Positions 51,331-58,442 of a DNA stretch of 64,000 nt are shown piece by piece. Position 1 is the stretch's first letter; the number at the start of each line of letters is the position of its first letter. The position numbers were made by a program, and so were the translations under genes. The notes below the pieces were generated by a model. That model saw only the letters and a program-made list of their open reading frames with translations. It searched no databases and had not been told where the DNA came from. Source of the stretch: an uncultured Rhodospirillales bacterium (GTDB lineage Bacteria > Pseudomonadota > Alphaproteobacteria > Rhodospirillales > UBA2165); NCBI GenBank assembly GCA_913055735.1, contig CAJXKD010000002.1, positions 908,150 through 972,149 of the forward strand, in the 5' to 3' direction.

Positions 51331-53271
51331 CTAGCTTCTAGAGGTAACGGCACGTGCCTGCCGGGCAAAAAGGAACTCCCGGCCCACAAGAACGATGCCA
51401 AGGATAAGGCCCGCGATATCGGTGACATGCGCGCCGTCGAAGGCAGACGCGGGAACCAACAAACCAAGTCCGGCGAGCGCGAACAGAAGCCGGAACAGCA
51501 CATTTAGCGGCCGCGAGAAATACCCGATGATGGCGACGGAGACGAGCCAAACGCCGACGGCTGCCGTAATTGCCGCCAAAACAATCGCAGCGGGCGCTCC
51601 CTGCATGATCAATTCCGGACTGAATACGAACAGGAATGGAATCAAATACGCGAGCCAACCGAATTTCATGGCAGCCAACCCGGTCTTCATCGCATCGGCG
51701 CCGGACAGGCTTGCCGCGGCAAAGGCGGCAATGGCCACCGGCGGCGTGATCATCGACATCATGCCGAAATAGAGGATGAAGAGATGCGCCGCCATGGGCA
51801 GAATGCCGACCTCGACGAGCGACGAGGCCACCAGCGTCGACAACAGGATGTAAACGCCCGCCGTCGGCATTCCCATGCCCAGAATGATACAGACCACCGC
51901 CGAGACGAGGAGCAGCAACAGCATATTGCCGCCGCCGAGACTGATCAGCATTTGCGTAAGCGCATAGGCCAAACCGGTAATACCCAGCGCGCCGATGACG
52001 ACGCCCGCGGCCGCACCGATCATGATGATATCGAGCACGGCGATACCCGTATCGCGGACCGCCGCATAGACCTCCATCGGTTTCAGGCGTTTGCCCTTGT
52101 AACCGAAGATCGCAGAACAGATGACGATAACCACGGCGGACAAAAGCGCCGCTTTTTCCGGCGACATGTTGAGCCAGAACAGGGCGTAGATCAGCGCGAC
52201 GAACGGCAGCGAGAAAAACCAGCCTTCCCTTAGCACCTTGATCGGACGGGGAATTTGCGCACGGTCGACCGCCTTGATGCCGCTTTTGGCGGCTTCGAGA
52301 TCCGCCAGGATGAACAGGGCCACGTAATAGAGAATGGCCGGGATCAGCGCCGCAAGAACCACTTCCTTGTATTCGACTTCGAGGAACTCGGCCATGAGGA
52401 AGGCGGCCGCCCCCATGATCGGTGGCATCAGCTGCCCGCCCGTCGACGCCACGGCCTCGATGGCGCCGGCCTTGTGGACGTCGTAGCCGGCGTTGCGCAT
52501 CAGCGGAATGGTGATAACCCCCGTCGTCGCCACGTTGGAAACCGCACTGCCGGAAATGGATCCGAACATGCCCGACGCGGTGACCGCGATCTTGGCCTGA
52601 CCGCCGCGGAAACGGCCGACAAGGATCATAGACAATTCGGTGAAAAATTCGGATCCGCCTGAAACGAGCAGAATGTGCCCGAAGAGAACGAAGGAGACCA
52701 CGACGGTCGACACGATCTCCATGGGCAGACCGAGCATCGCCGTCGGATCCCACGCAAACGTATAGAACAGGATCGCCGGCGGAATGTAGCGGGCTTGCAA
52801 ATCACCGGGTATCAAATGGCCGACCAGCCCGAGCAGAGCAAAGAAGACCACGACGCCGGTAAAAACATGGCCGACCGTACGGCGTGTTCCCTCCACCACG
52901 ACGAGCAGGATGATCGTTCCGACGATCAGCCCGTCCGCGGGCGTCTCCATAACCATTTCGGCAAGCACCGGATAGCGAGCCGCCATATAGACGGACGCTC
53001 CGAAACCGAGCACACCGGCAAGGATGTCATACCACGGCGGAACACCGCCGCGCCGGCCGGAAACACGATAAACGAGGAACACGAGGGGGATCGACACGGC
53101 CAGCATGCCGATCAGAAATTGCTGCGTATAGAGGACGAGCCCGAAGACACGGAAGAGGTCCGTCGACCAGGCAATCGCCCCCACCATCAGCACGACGGCG
53201 AGGGTGGCAATAAGGCCACCCAACGCCGCCGGAACTGACTTTTCTTGTTTTTCTAATTCGGTATCGGACAA
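51331..53271 (-). CDS. TRAP transporter fused permease, TAXI type, unit 2
   Basis: A 646-residue fused permease, strongly similar along its whole length to unit 1. It has the same GSISGSAVSNVATTGVITIP core and MGAAAFLMAEFLEVEYKEVV region, and the end FGMMSMITPPVAIAAFAAASL matches too. The binding-protein gene lies 11 bases upstream on the same strand. Differences in charged loops suggest a different substrate from unit 1. Confidence 0.93.
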   Translation of the reverse strand: MSDTELEKQEKSVPAALGGLIATLAVVLMVGAIAWSTDLFRVFGLVLYTQQFLIGMLAVSIPLVFLVYRVSGRRGGVPPWYDILAGVLGFGASVYMAARYPVLAEMVMETPADGLIVGTIILLVVVEGTRRTVGHVFTGVVVFFALLGLVGHLIPGDLQARYIPPAILFYTFAWDPTAMLGLPMEIVSTVVVSFVLFGHILLVSGGSEFFTELSMILVGRFRGGQAKIAVTASGMFGSISGSAVSNVATTGVITIPLMRNAGYDVHKAGAIEAVASTGGQLMPPIMGAAAFLMAEFLEVEYKEVVLAALIPAILYYVALFILADLEAAKSGIKAVDRAQIPRPIKVLREGWFFSLPFVALIYALFWLNMSPEKAALLSAVVIVICSAIFGYKGKRLKPMEVYAAVRDTGIAVLDIIMIGAAAGVVIGALGITGLAYALTQMLISLGGGNMLLLLLVSAVVCIILGMGMPTAGVYILLSTLVASSLVEVGILPMAAHLFILYFGMMSMITPPVAIAAFAAASLSGADAMKTGLAAMKFGWLAYLIPFLFVFSPELIMQGAPAAIVLAAITAAVGVWLVSVAIIGYFSRPLNVLFRLLFALAGLGLLVPASAFDGAHVTDIAGLILGIVLVGREFLFARQARAVTSRS

Positions 53272-53282
53272 TCAAAGACGCC

Positions 53283-54242
53283 TTATTTCGGCGGCCACTG
53301 GCCGATTTCCTTGTAATACTTGATGGCACCGGCGTGGTAGCTCACGCCTTCAAAATTCTTCGCCATGCTGTCCGGCGAGAACAGGCGCAGTGCGGGAAAT
53401 GCCGACGCCAGCCCCTTCGGGTTGTCGTGCATCGCCTTGACCAGCTTATAGACGACATCCTCGGAAACCTTCGAGTTGGTCAGCACGAGATAGTCGTAAG
53501 CCATCACCGCCGTGGGCTCGAAAACACCCAGGTTCGCCGGAGAAGGATTGTTGTTGTAGACATATGCCGGCGGCACGTGCTTGCGCATACGGGCAACGGC
53601 TTCGGGCGAGGTATCGATCCCGACCACCTGAACGCCACCGACCTTGGCATCCGTTTCCTTCACCTTGCCGGAACCGAACGCAAAGAAGAAGACGTCGGTC
53701 TTGCCAGCGGCAAAATCGTCAGCGCTTTGCACGACGTTCGCGACAGGAACCTGAACGACGTCGTCATAGGTCAGCCCGGCATTTGCCAACACACCGTTCA
53801 TCAGAACGCCGATGATCTTCTGGCTGGTCCAGCCCGACGGCACGCGCTTGCCTCTAAGATCGGCGCCCGTTTTGATGCCCGAGCCTTTTTTGGCATAAAC
53901 GGCGGAGCGGAACGGGGTCAAAACCGTTGCAATTTGCAGATCGGGCTGTTTGCGGCCCTTGTAAATGCCGGTGCCGGTCGCCGCGTAATAGGTTTCGAGC
54001 TGGTTGGCGAGGCCGAATTGCATGATCCCGGCGCTAACCTGCGGCACGTAAACGCTCGACCCACCGAAAGTCTGGGTCCGCATTTTCACGTCGGTATTTT
54101 CGGAAACGACTTTCGCGATCGCTGCACCGGCCTGAGACGTAAAGCCGGCCTTGGAAGCGGCAATACCGACCGTTTGCGCCATCGCGGTACCCGATAGCAT
54201 TATCAAGCCCGCAGATACGGCTAGAATACGATTGAACTTCAT
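53283..54242 (-). CDS. TAXI-family TRAP solute-binding protein, unit 2
   Basis: A 319-residue exported protein with signal peptide MKFNRILAVSAGLIMLSGTA and a mature part like unit 1 (TVGIAASKAGFTSQAGAAIA, then FGGSSVYVPQVSAGIMQFGL). ATG 54242 gives the best signal peptide and an AGGGAG ribosome-binding site; ATG 54248 is also in frame. Substrate-contact residues differ from unit 1 in several loops, which fits a different specificity. Confidence 0.92.
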   Translation of the reverse strand: MKFNRILAVSAGLIMLSGTAMAQTVGIAASKAGFTSQAGAAIAKVVSENTDVKMRTQTFGGSSVYVPQVSAGIMQFGLANQLETYYAATGTGIYKGRKQPDLQIATVLTPFRSAVYAKKGSGIKTGADLRGKRVPSGWTSQKIIGVLMNGVLANAGLTYDDVVQVPVANVVQSADDFAAGKTDVFFFAFGSGKVKETDAKVGGVQVVGIDTSPEAVARMRKHVPPAYVYNNNPSPANLGVFEPTAVMAYDYLVLTNSKVSEDVVYKLVKAMHDNPKGLASAFPALRLFSPDSMAKNFEGVSYHAGAIKYYKEIGQWPPK

Positions 54243-54256
54243 GTGCATCTCCCTCA

Positions 54257-54275
54257 CGCCGCCGCTGGGACGGCG
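54257..54275 (-). promoter_or_regulatory. Leader hairpin before the unit 2 binding-protein gene
   Basis: In the minus-strand transcript CGCCGUC (54275 to 54269) pairs with GGCGGCG (54263 to 54257) over 7 positions with one G-U pair and a 5-base loop, ending 14 bases before the start codon. Spacing and stem match unit 1. Confidence 0.5.
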
Positions 54276-56304: not shown

Positions 56305-57813
56305 CTAAAGAAATATGTTGATGGCGTAGAAGATCGCGGCCGCGAGCAGCGCAGACGCCGGTACCGTAATCACCCAAGCCGCAGCAATCGTCGCCATGTG
56401 CCGGCGGCGGACCAGTTTCCGCTTGCGTGCCTTCGCCCAGCGGCGGAACTCCGCTTCTTCCAGCTCCTTCGCCGAGGCCGGAACCGGCGGCGCGGAAACG
56501 CCGATATGCGCGCCGCGGTTGGAAATGAACTCACGCAAGAACCCAACGCCGAACACAGCCCCGACGGCAATGTGCGTCGAACTCACCGGCAAGCCCAGTG
56601 TCGAGGCGATGATTACGGTGATCGCTGCCGATAGAGCGACACAGAAAGCGCGTACCCGGTCGAGCTTGGTAATCTTTTCACCAACGATCTCGATGATCTT
56701 GGGACCGAACAGCAGAAGCCCGACGGAAATCCCAACGGCGCCGATGGCCAGCACCCAGAACGGCAAGGTCACCTTCCCCGCGACTTGGCCTTCAGTCACC
56801 GCACTGACGATGGCGGCCAAGGGCCCGACCGCATTGGCCACGTCGTTGGACCCATGAGCGAAGGACAGCAAGGCCGCCGCGCAGATCAGCGGGATGGTGA
56901 ACAGGCTGCCGACCGACTTCCGCCGGTTTTCCAAATGAGCCGATGCCTTCACCACTGCCGCCTTGACGACAGCGAAAGAAATCACAAATGCGGCCGCGCC
57001 GATGGCGGTGATCATCCAGAGATCCGGCTTCCAGATCCGCTTGAAGCCTTTCATCATCAAATAGACCGAGAACGCAGTTGCCATGATCGCCACGACCACC
57101 GGCACCCAGCGCCGGGCCGCACCGAGCTTATCCTCACGATAAAGGACGAAGAATTTGATGAAGGCGAGAAATGCGGCGGCAATCACCCCGCCCAGCACCG
57201 GCGAAATCACCCAGCTGGCGGCAATTTGCGCCATCACGACCCAGTCCACGGTGGCGAAACCAGCCGCCGCGATCCCCGCGCCCATCACGCCACCAACGAT
57301 CGAGTGCGTGGTCGATACCGGCGCGCCCAGTACCGTCGCCAGGTTGACCCATACCGCCGCCGACAACAGCGCCGCCATCATCGCCCAGACGAAAACCGTC
57401 TGATCCGCGAAAGAGGATGGGCTGATAATGCCTTTGGAGATGGTCGATACTACCTCACCGCCCGCAATCAACGCACCCGCTGCCTCGAAAATGGCGGCAA
57501 TCGCCAGCGCCCCGATCATAGTTAGCGCCTTGGACCCCACCGCCGGGCCGACGTTGTTGGCAACATCGTTGGCACCGATGTTCATCGCCATGTAACCGCC
57601 GACAATGGCGGCGATGATCAGAATGGATTGGCCGCTGGCGCTCCCGGTCTGGAAAAAGGTGAACAACCAGACGCCCAACAGGAATAGAAGACCGAACCCT
57701 AGATTGAGGTTCCGCTGGCTGATCTTCGCCGTCGCCTTCTCGAGTTGGACGATGCGCTTGAGATCTTTGTCAACGGTGGTCTTCTTCGGATTGGAAACCG
57801 GAGTGTCGGGCAT
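56305..57813 (-). CDS. pit: PiT-family inorganic phosphate transporter
   Basis: A 502-residue membrane transporter with about ten helices. Two copies of the PiT signature are seen: NIGANDVANNVGPAVGSKAL in the first half and AHGSNDVANAVGPLAAIVSA in the second, separated by a central cytoplasmic region. It takes up inorganic phosphate with protons or cations. I place the start at ATG 57813 and not at ATG 57894, because a Pho box at 57908-57940 must lie upstream of the transcript start. It is divergent from a Nudix gene. Confidence 0.9.
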   Translation of the reverse strand: MPDTPVSNPKKTTVDKDLKRIVQLEKATAKISQRNLNLGFGLLFLLGVWLFTFFQTGSASGQSILIIAAIVGGYMAMNIGANDVANNVGPAVGSKALTMIGALAIAAIFEAAGALIAGGEVVSTISKGIISPSSFADQTVFVWAMMAALLSAAVWVNLATVLGAPVSTTHSIVGGVMGAGIAAAGFATVDWVVMAQIAASWVISPVLGGVIAAAFLAFIKFFVLYREDKLGAARRWVPVVVAIMATAFSVYLMMKGFKRIWKPDLWMITAIGAAAFVISFAVVKAAVVKASAHLENRRKSVGSLFTIPLICAAALLSFAHGSNDVANAVGPLAAIVSAVTEGQVAGKVTLPFWVLAIGAVGISVGLLLFGPKIIEIVGEKITKLDRVRAFCVALSAAITVIIASTLGLPVSSTHIAVGAVFGVGFLREFISNRGAHIGVSAPPVPASAKELEEAEFRRWAKARKRKLVRRRHMATIAAAWVITVPASALLAAAIFYAINIFL

Positions 57814-57907
57814 GATCGGCTGCGAAGATTGTTGGTCGCGCCAAAAATGACGCCGGGACAAAGGGTGCCCCTGTCGCTTAGCGGGTTCCGGCATGGGGGG
57901 TCAATTG

Positions 57908-57940
57908 AATTGTGACATTTTTATTTCATTTTTATGACAA
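57908..57940 (-). promoter_or_regulatory. Three-repeat Pho box (PhoB site) upstream of pit
   Basis: On the minus strand the sequence is three successive 11-base units: TTGTCATAAAA, ATGAAATAAAA and ATGTCACAATT. The Pho box consensus is TGTCA-type repeats of 7 bases separated by 4 AT-rich bases, so the 11-base spacing and the first and third repeats fit well. Orientation and position point to pit. PhoB may activate or repress; in Sinorhizobium the pit operon is repressed by PhoB. Confidence 0.78.
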
Positions 57941-57995
57941 TCCCTGTCTGGAACCGCTTGACGCCGTGACTGCCGCGCACAATCCTGCGCGCCGC

Positions 57996-58442
57996 ATGAT
58001 CAATTTCGGAAACATCCAGCAAGCCGGTGTGCTGCCCTATGAAATCCGCAAGGGGAAGCTGCGGGTGCTGCTCATTACCTCGACCGGCACCCGGCGCTGG
58101 ATTATTCCCAAAGGCTACGTGGAACCCAAGCTGACGGCGCGTGAATCCGCCGAATTCGAGGCCTATGAGGAAGCGGGCGTATCCGGCCGCCTCGCCGCCA
58201 CCAGCATCGGCGCCTACACCTATGTGAAGCGGGACGAAAAAGGCGGCGGTCGTTTCCGGGTGAAAGTCTACCCCATGGAAGTCACCCGGATTCTCGACGA
58301 CTACCCCGAGGCCGCACAGCGCAAACGCAAATGGATGAAAGTCGACGACGCCATTAAGGCCGTCGAAGAACCGGGCCTAAAAACGATTTTGCGGACCTTC
58401 GCCCGGCGCCACGCGGCAAAAACCGGCGCGGAAAAGAAATAA
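57996..58442 (+). CDS. Nudix hydrolase-fold protein with variant Nudix box
   Basis: A 148-residue protein with the Nudix fold: GVLPYEIRKGKLRVLLITS, TRRWIIPKGYVEPKLTARES and FEAYEEAGVSGRL. Nudix enzymes hydrolyse nucleoside diphosphates linked to other groups. The box here is GYVEPKLTARESAEFEAYEE, where the usual R-E-U-x-E-E part reads F-E-A-Y-E-E, so the conserved arginine is lost; the two glutamates that bind metal remain. I chose ATG 57996; GTG 57966 is in frame, and an ATG at 57912 lies inside the Pho box and is unlikely. Confidence 0.78.
   Translation: MINFGNIQQAGVLPYEIRKGKLRVLLITSTGTRRWIIPKGYVEPKLTARESAEFEAYEEAGVSGRLAATSIGAYTYVKRDEKGGGRFRVKVYPMEVTRILDDYPEAAQRKRKWMKVDDAIKAVEEPGLKTILRTFARRHAAKTGAEKK

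Follow-up and report, generated by a model that had tools for sequence, protein, structure and literature searches.

A three-unit Pho box upstream of pit in a Rhodospirillales bacterium and the predicted PhoB control of a PiT-family phosphate transporter

In the stretch of DNA analysed here (64 kb in total; hereafter, the window), a three-unit Pho box (57908-57940, minus strand) lies upstream of, and points towards, the pit gene for a phosphate transporter of the PiT/PHO4 family, and we consider it probable (roughly 0.7) that this box is a PhoB operator that activates pit in phosphate starvation, alongside pstSCAB. The prediction that 57908-57940 is a real PhoB-type site is supported by its sequence, and PhoB control of pit is, as predicted from the comparison of genomes, well supported; the binding of PhoB itself, activation over repression, and a transcript start downstream of 57908 are what we infer. 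In the proposed mechanism, PhoR would phosphorylate PhoB at low phosphate, PhoB would bind head to tail along the three 11-base units of the box, the bound PhoB would recruit RNA polymerase to pit, and the PiT carrier would join the starvation-induced Pho regulon with pstSCAB. A Pit carrier is usually viewed as constitutive. Note that Pit is commonly treated as a low-affinity importer for plentiful phosphate, as stated in the available portions of two papers (PMC12981677, PMC10734472).

The box, the pit gene and the other boxes of the genome

Read on the minus strand from 57940 to 57908, the box is exactly TTGTCATAAAA ATGAAATAAAA ATGTCACAATT (units 57940-57930, 57929-57919, and 57918-57908). 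The three direct 11-base units with the half-site spacing of PhoB, as given in the original prediction, were thus borne out, with the letters exact and the units in register. According to the available text of PMC4415409, a Pho box consists of at least two tandem 11-base units, with a conserved part near CTGTCAT and four less conserved bases; the site at pit has three tandem 11-base units in register. The three-unit pattern (TGWMAY-N5-TGWMAY-N5-TGWMAY) matched the window only once, at 57912-57939, and occurred in none of 100 dinucleotide shuffles of the window. Scoring was also performed with a weight matrix, of which the weights were not fitted; the pit box was the top site of the window on both strands (three-unit score, 35.9 towards pit versus 20.4 on the opposite strand), every other site above the print threshold was a reading of these bases in a shifted register or on the reverse strand, and only 2 of the 344 370-base tiles of the window scored at least 17, both of them at the pit box and one per strand.

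The pit gene (56305-57813, minus strand) encodes a protein that matched PF01384 with an E value of 1e-108 (363.9 bits; cut-off, 33.7) and a solved relative, the phosphate transporter 6L85, with an E value of 2.6e-71. In the alignment of ten Pit sequences (that of the window and nine relatives), GANDVAN and HG-NDVAN were invariant, so that both of the (G)ANDVAN-type repeats of a PiT carrier are present. As for the substrate, phosphate is predicted rather than sulfate because of the link with pho genes; a Pit homologue (at locus L041, see below) gave 121 bits with the model of the CysP sulfate permease and 63 bits with that of PitA, which are below the respective cut-offs of 400 and 800. The longest open reading frame of pit (529 amino acids) starts at ATG 57894, and a start there would put the box only 13 bases away. 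The conservation in the ten-sequence alignment starts only around KKTTVDKDL and therefore fits a start at the nearest ATG, 57813. The claim that pit starts at 57813 is thus plausible and not proved; an in-frame TTG at 57861, 6 bases after an AGGGG read by eye, is a possible alternative start. Elsewhere in the window, at 51331-54257, the list of open reading frames was read by eye as showing a fused permease of the TRAP type and a binding protein of the TAXI type. On the other side of the box, a divergent gene for a NUDIX hydrolase (57996-58442, plus strand; PF00293, E value of 6.7e-8) was found, of which the open reading frame begins at GTG 57912 and the likely start codon is ATG 57996. A NUDIX gene adjoins pit in many alphaproteobacteria (the window and L079-L157); in the window, as in some relatives, the two genes diverge, and in many Rhodobacterales the NUDIX gene lies upstream and points the same way as pit.

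As for the promoter, TTGACC (57899-57904, minus strand), a possible -35 element, follows the box at a distance of 3 bases, and CTAAGC at 57876-57881 sits 17 bases past TTGACC; the -10 element is not clear. TTGAC after the box is kept in four of the five aligned promoters (L001, L002, L003, and L005; it is absent from L008), no -10 was conserved among the aligned boxed promoters with TTGAC (L002, L003, and L005), and a consensus promoter scan detected none on the pit strand. At phoA of Escherichia coli, a two-unit box lies 6 bases before the -10 element. Counted from the first two units, the bases at this distance are CAATTC at the window pit, so no -10 of that type stands there, and TATAAG at four other loci (L010, L011, L020, and L099); among all 27 boxed promoters, the offset of 6 ranked only third of 26, and the E. 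coli geometry stood out only among 11 loci chosen after inspection. The pstS promoters of the family are like that of the window pit in having tandem 11-base units in the same orientation (eight scanned), and in five of the eight CCTA or CTTA stands 15 bases past the box. Such a pstS-like block 15 bases past the box was sought at the window pit and was not visible; the window pit thus differs from the pstS promoters in lacking the CCTA/CTTA block and in having TTGACC at a distance of 3 bases from the box.

A scan of the organism's genome with the same repeat, suggested together with the original prediction, gave four three-unit matches in 3.73 Mb (reversed-pattern control, 0), located at pstS, a lipid-metabolism locus, a phosphonate cluster, and pit; three of the four are plainly phosphorus loci. 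The pho locus of this genome has the order phoR-pstSCAB-phoU-phoB with the full pst operon kept, and the pstS box is placed between phoR and pstS. PhoB (C1:939953-940621) gave 345.9 bits (cut-off, 296.2), and the best match of PhoR was TIGR02966 (309 bits, below the cut-off of 334.2); a like box at pstS and the genes for PhoB and PhoR, as expected where a Pho box operates, are therefore all present. At the lipid locus (7084-9052 of L039, G000:C1:1848000-1864000), a lipid-kinase-type gene is divergent from a metallophosphoesterase gene, and the box lies between the two, upstream of the conserved part of the former; genes of the PlcP/Agt type serve phosphate-sparing lipid remodelling, which is a possible role of this locus. 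The phosphonate cluster (4633-8345 of L040, G000:C2:12000-27000) comprises genes for PEP mutase, a probable phosphonopyruvate decarboxylase (assigned by eye), and a PhnY-like dioxygenase; its box (7528-7555 of L040), which is weaker and consists of three TGAAAY units, adjoins the PEP mutase gene (395 bits; cut-off, 320) and is also near a gene of the methylphosphonate-hydroxylase family (155 bits versus a cut-off of 500). The stricter two-unit pattern TGTMAY-N5-TGTMAY gave five matches in the genome (control, 2), that is, two overlapping ones at pstS, one at the lipid locus, and those at C1:584819 and C1:636538; the pit box was missed because its middle unit is TGAAAT.

Conservation of the box and replacement of pst by pit in relatives

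Matches to Pit were obtained in 48 of 60 genomes, that of the window included, and 30 loci were fetched (19 from the family of the window and 11 from other families of the order). A box was scored as present with a two-unit score of at least 17 within 350 bases upstream, with 300 composition-only shuffles per locus. Under this condition, 15 of the 19 family pits scanned have the box (p at most 0.003); neither G018, whose pit shows 51% identity, nor the second pit gene of G012 was part of the scan. The boxless pits are L004, L006, L007, and L009, and the boxless genomes include one (G002) with both PhoB and PstB over the cut-off. Of the 11 loci fetched from outside the family, two (L028 and L030) reached 17, and L029 scored 14.4 with two units and 22.9 with three. 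Outside the family, a minority of the named GTDB loci passed (9 of 80; score of 17 and p of 0.01, with 100 shuffles each in which base composition only was kept), and these nine include two pits identical to L012 and L019. A boxed pit is also carried by Kiloniella spongiae (L082), a cultured relative. The best three-unit scores at the family pstS genes were 20 to 40 (eight scanned, with no shuffle control). A scan independent of pit, with the pattern TGTCATWAAANTGWMAY, covered 24 family genomes and gave 10 matches (control, 2). Of these, five were at pit and four at pstS, one of the pstS assignments having been made by eye from an open frame; the tenth fell within an open frame. With a stricter pattern, two matches were obtained in nine genomes, both at pit (control, 0). 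In G017, which has no PhoB over the cut-off, the middle unit is AGGAGATTAAA versus ATGACATTAAA in G010 and G015, and such damage is as expected if PhoB maintains the site. Five more genomes with no PhoB over the cut-off, several of them incomplete, retain the box. Within the family, the association of the box with PhoB was also considered and proved weak: the box was found in 9 of 10 PhoB-positive and 6 of 9 PhoB-negative genomes, the negative set as defined by the cut-off including several incomplete genomes.

Five relatives (G004, G007, G013, G019, and G022) have PhoB over the cut-off and no PstB over the cut-off, and the box is present at pit in all five. Four of them, G004, G007, G013, and G022 (completeness, 94%, 92%, 98%, and 68%; boxed pit loci, L011, L017, L019, and L010, respectively), have one PHO4 gene each and no match to the NptA family (PF02690), and Pit is the sole recognised phosphate importer there; G019 was left out of this list because of its second PHO4 gene. 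In G004, G013, G019, and G022 (L067-L070), phoR adjoins phoB, and pstSCAB-phoU is missing between them; G020, of the same genus, retains phoR-pstSCAB-phoU-phoB. No match to PhoU was obtained in G004 or G013, the two of these four genomes that were searched. Note that pstB and phoU lie at a contig end in G006, and that open frames on contig C219 of G009, a genome scored as having no PstB, were read by eye as PhoR and PstS; the list of genomes with no PstB over the cut-off therefore overstates the loss, and the loss of Pst was accepted as firm only in genomes whose phoR-phoB locus makes the absence visible.

In two lineages, pit occupies the usual place of pstSCAB within the pho operon, in the order phoR-box-pit-phoU-phoB. 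One is G007 (3177-7353 of L041, G007:C250:6000-20000), where PhoU and PhoB were over and PhoR was below the cut-off; the other is L099 (4834-8679), from another Rhodospirillales lineage, where phoB is cut by the contig end and the box score is only 14.5. No PstB over the cut-off was detected in either genome (the completeness of the L099 genome was not given), and Pit was not regarded as the sole importer of the L099 genome because a gene of the NptA family is present. At L120 (4790-13421), the order is phoR-box-pit-box-pstSCAB-phoU-phoB, with Pit and Pst in one operon and a box for each, which is a natural intermediate. L120 was near L099 in the Pit tree, a quick reconstruction with many weak forks (43 of the 104 inner branches starred), of which starred branches part G007 from the L099/L120 group. 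In the same tree, G008 and G014 were the sister of G007, and in G008 (1940-6782 of L058) pit is followed by a C-terminal remnant of pstB, a C-terminal remnant of phoB, and an EttA-type gene (named by eye), the last of which follows phoB in other genomes; the two remnants are traces of a lost pho operon. L116 and L117 were also considered as pho operons and were not counted; the box near pit is on the other strand and pstS is distant. According to the available part of a survey of 926 genomes, 99.4% of the genomes with PhoU also have Pst (PMC13170248). The pairing of PhoU with Pst and of PitR with PitA in the available part of that survey resembles the present case in that accessory regulators travel with the transporter; unlike the pattern there, G007 and L099 have a PhoU gene beside pit and no PstB over the cut-off in the genome (PMC13170248).

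Direction of control

The original prediction had proposed phosphate control of pit, perhaps as repression in starvation as in Sinorhizobium. The control is well supported, with a PhoB-type site conserved with pit and both PhoB and a boxed pst operon present; repression, by a box covering the promoter and with Pit swapped for the high-affinity Pst, is unlikely. In the available text of the two papers on orfA-pit of Sinorhizobium meliloti (PMC3131613, PMC8829014), the likeness is that of an alphaproteobacterial pit with a Pho box, repressed by PhoB there; under phosphate stress, few genes are repressed more strongly than this pit (PMC8829014), and its box is just upstream of the translation start (PMC3131613). 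It differs from the window pit in that position of the box, in the repression in starvation, and in the cotranscribed gene for an accessory protein, as far as these sources describe it. The genome of the window has Pst, so a swap from Pit to Pst is possible. The accessory protein (PitR) presumably belongs to the DUF47/PF01865 family, and no match to PF01865, and hence no gene of the PitR type to accompany pit, was obtained in the seven genomes searched, that of the window included. TTGAC, if it is the -35 element, sits downstream of the box and not beneath it. Moreover, repression would close the only recognised phosphate importer in G004, G007, G013, and G022, which carry a like box and PhoB, and activation is therefore favoured, as it also is by the two lineages in which pit belongs to the pho operon. 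A role of the box at the divergent NUDIX gene, by itself or shared with pit, is quite improbable: the end of the box is 55 bases upstream of ATG 57996, a NUDIX gene adjoins pit in many relatives, and sigma-70-like hexamers (GTGACA-18-GACAAT, 57912-57941, plus strand; 1 found versus 0.1 expected) lie inside the box on the NUDIX strand, but these hexamers are perhaps a by-product of the repeat itself, the repeat scores higher towards pit (see above), and the box is retained at pits for which no NUDIX homologue was found in the surrounding stretch (L010, L011, L013, and L017-L020, some of these stretches being cut by contig ends). Boxes can decay, as in the altered middle unit of G017, but a chance AT-rich repeat or a functionless relic is scarcely credible given the 0 of 100 shuffles, the family-wide conservation, and the presence of PhoB in the organism's genome.

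Activation of pit by PhoB, the reading preferred here, has a counterpart in pitH2 of Streptomyces coelicolor, of which the expression rises at limiting phosphate and the promoter is inactive in a phoP mutant, as given in the available text of a review (PMC7866108). This too is a gene for a PiT carrier with direct-repeat PHO boxes, and its neighbours are described in that text as unrelated to phosphate (PMC7866108); it differs in that the organism is an actinobacterium, the regulator is PhoP and not PhoB, and the box sequence is another one. A mesocosm paper, in the portion available, cites others for high pit expression at low phosphate in phytoplankton and bacteria; in the same study, pit is used as a low-affinity marker, and the pst/pit ratio of Rhodobacterales and Pseudomonadales rises as phosphate falls (PMC12981677). 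Caulobacter crescentus seems to lack a homologue of PitA/PitB, and its PhoB is active when pstS is deleted (PMC11208175). Against activation, the window pit has neither a clear -10 element nor the CCTA block, 4 of the 19 family pits are boxless, and boxed pits are a minority outside the family. Because the pst operon is kept in this organism and no clear -10 is seen at pit, the direction of control there is what we infer.

PhoP-activated pitH2 (PMC7866108) and PhoB-repressed orfA-pit (PMC3131613, PMC8829014) are thus already known from the available text of these sources; no paper describing Pit in place of Pst within the pho operon was identified in the open-licence literature, which was searched by title and abstract. 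As a tentative scenario, which we hold to be possible and somewhat doubtful, Pit in part of the Rhodospirillales may have gained a Pho box and so joined the PhoB regulon, may in certain lineages have moved into the pho operon, and Pst may then have been lost, with Pit becoming the starvation importer and the sensing partner of PhoU/PhoR; the window would represent an early stage, at which Pst and a PhoB-driven Pit occur together. The genomes with phoR and phoB and no pstSCAB-phoU (G004, G013, G019, and G022) raise the question of the signal to PhoR, and the order phoR-pit-phoU-phoB with no recognised Pst makes it testable whether sensing by PhoU/PhoR needs Pst or whether another importer suffices. 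If PhoB activates the gene for Pit, the sole recognised importer in some members, the reading of Pit as a low-affinity carrier for plentiful phosphate would be wrong for them.
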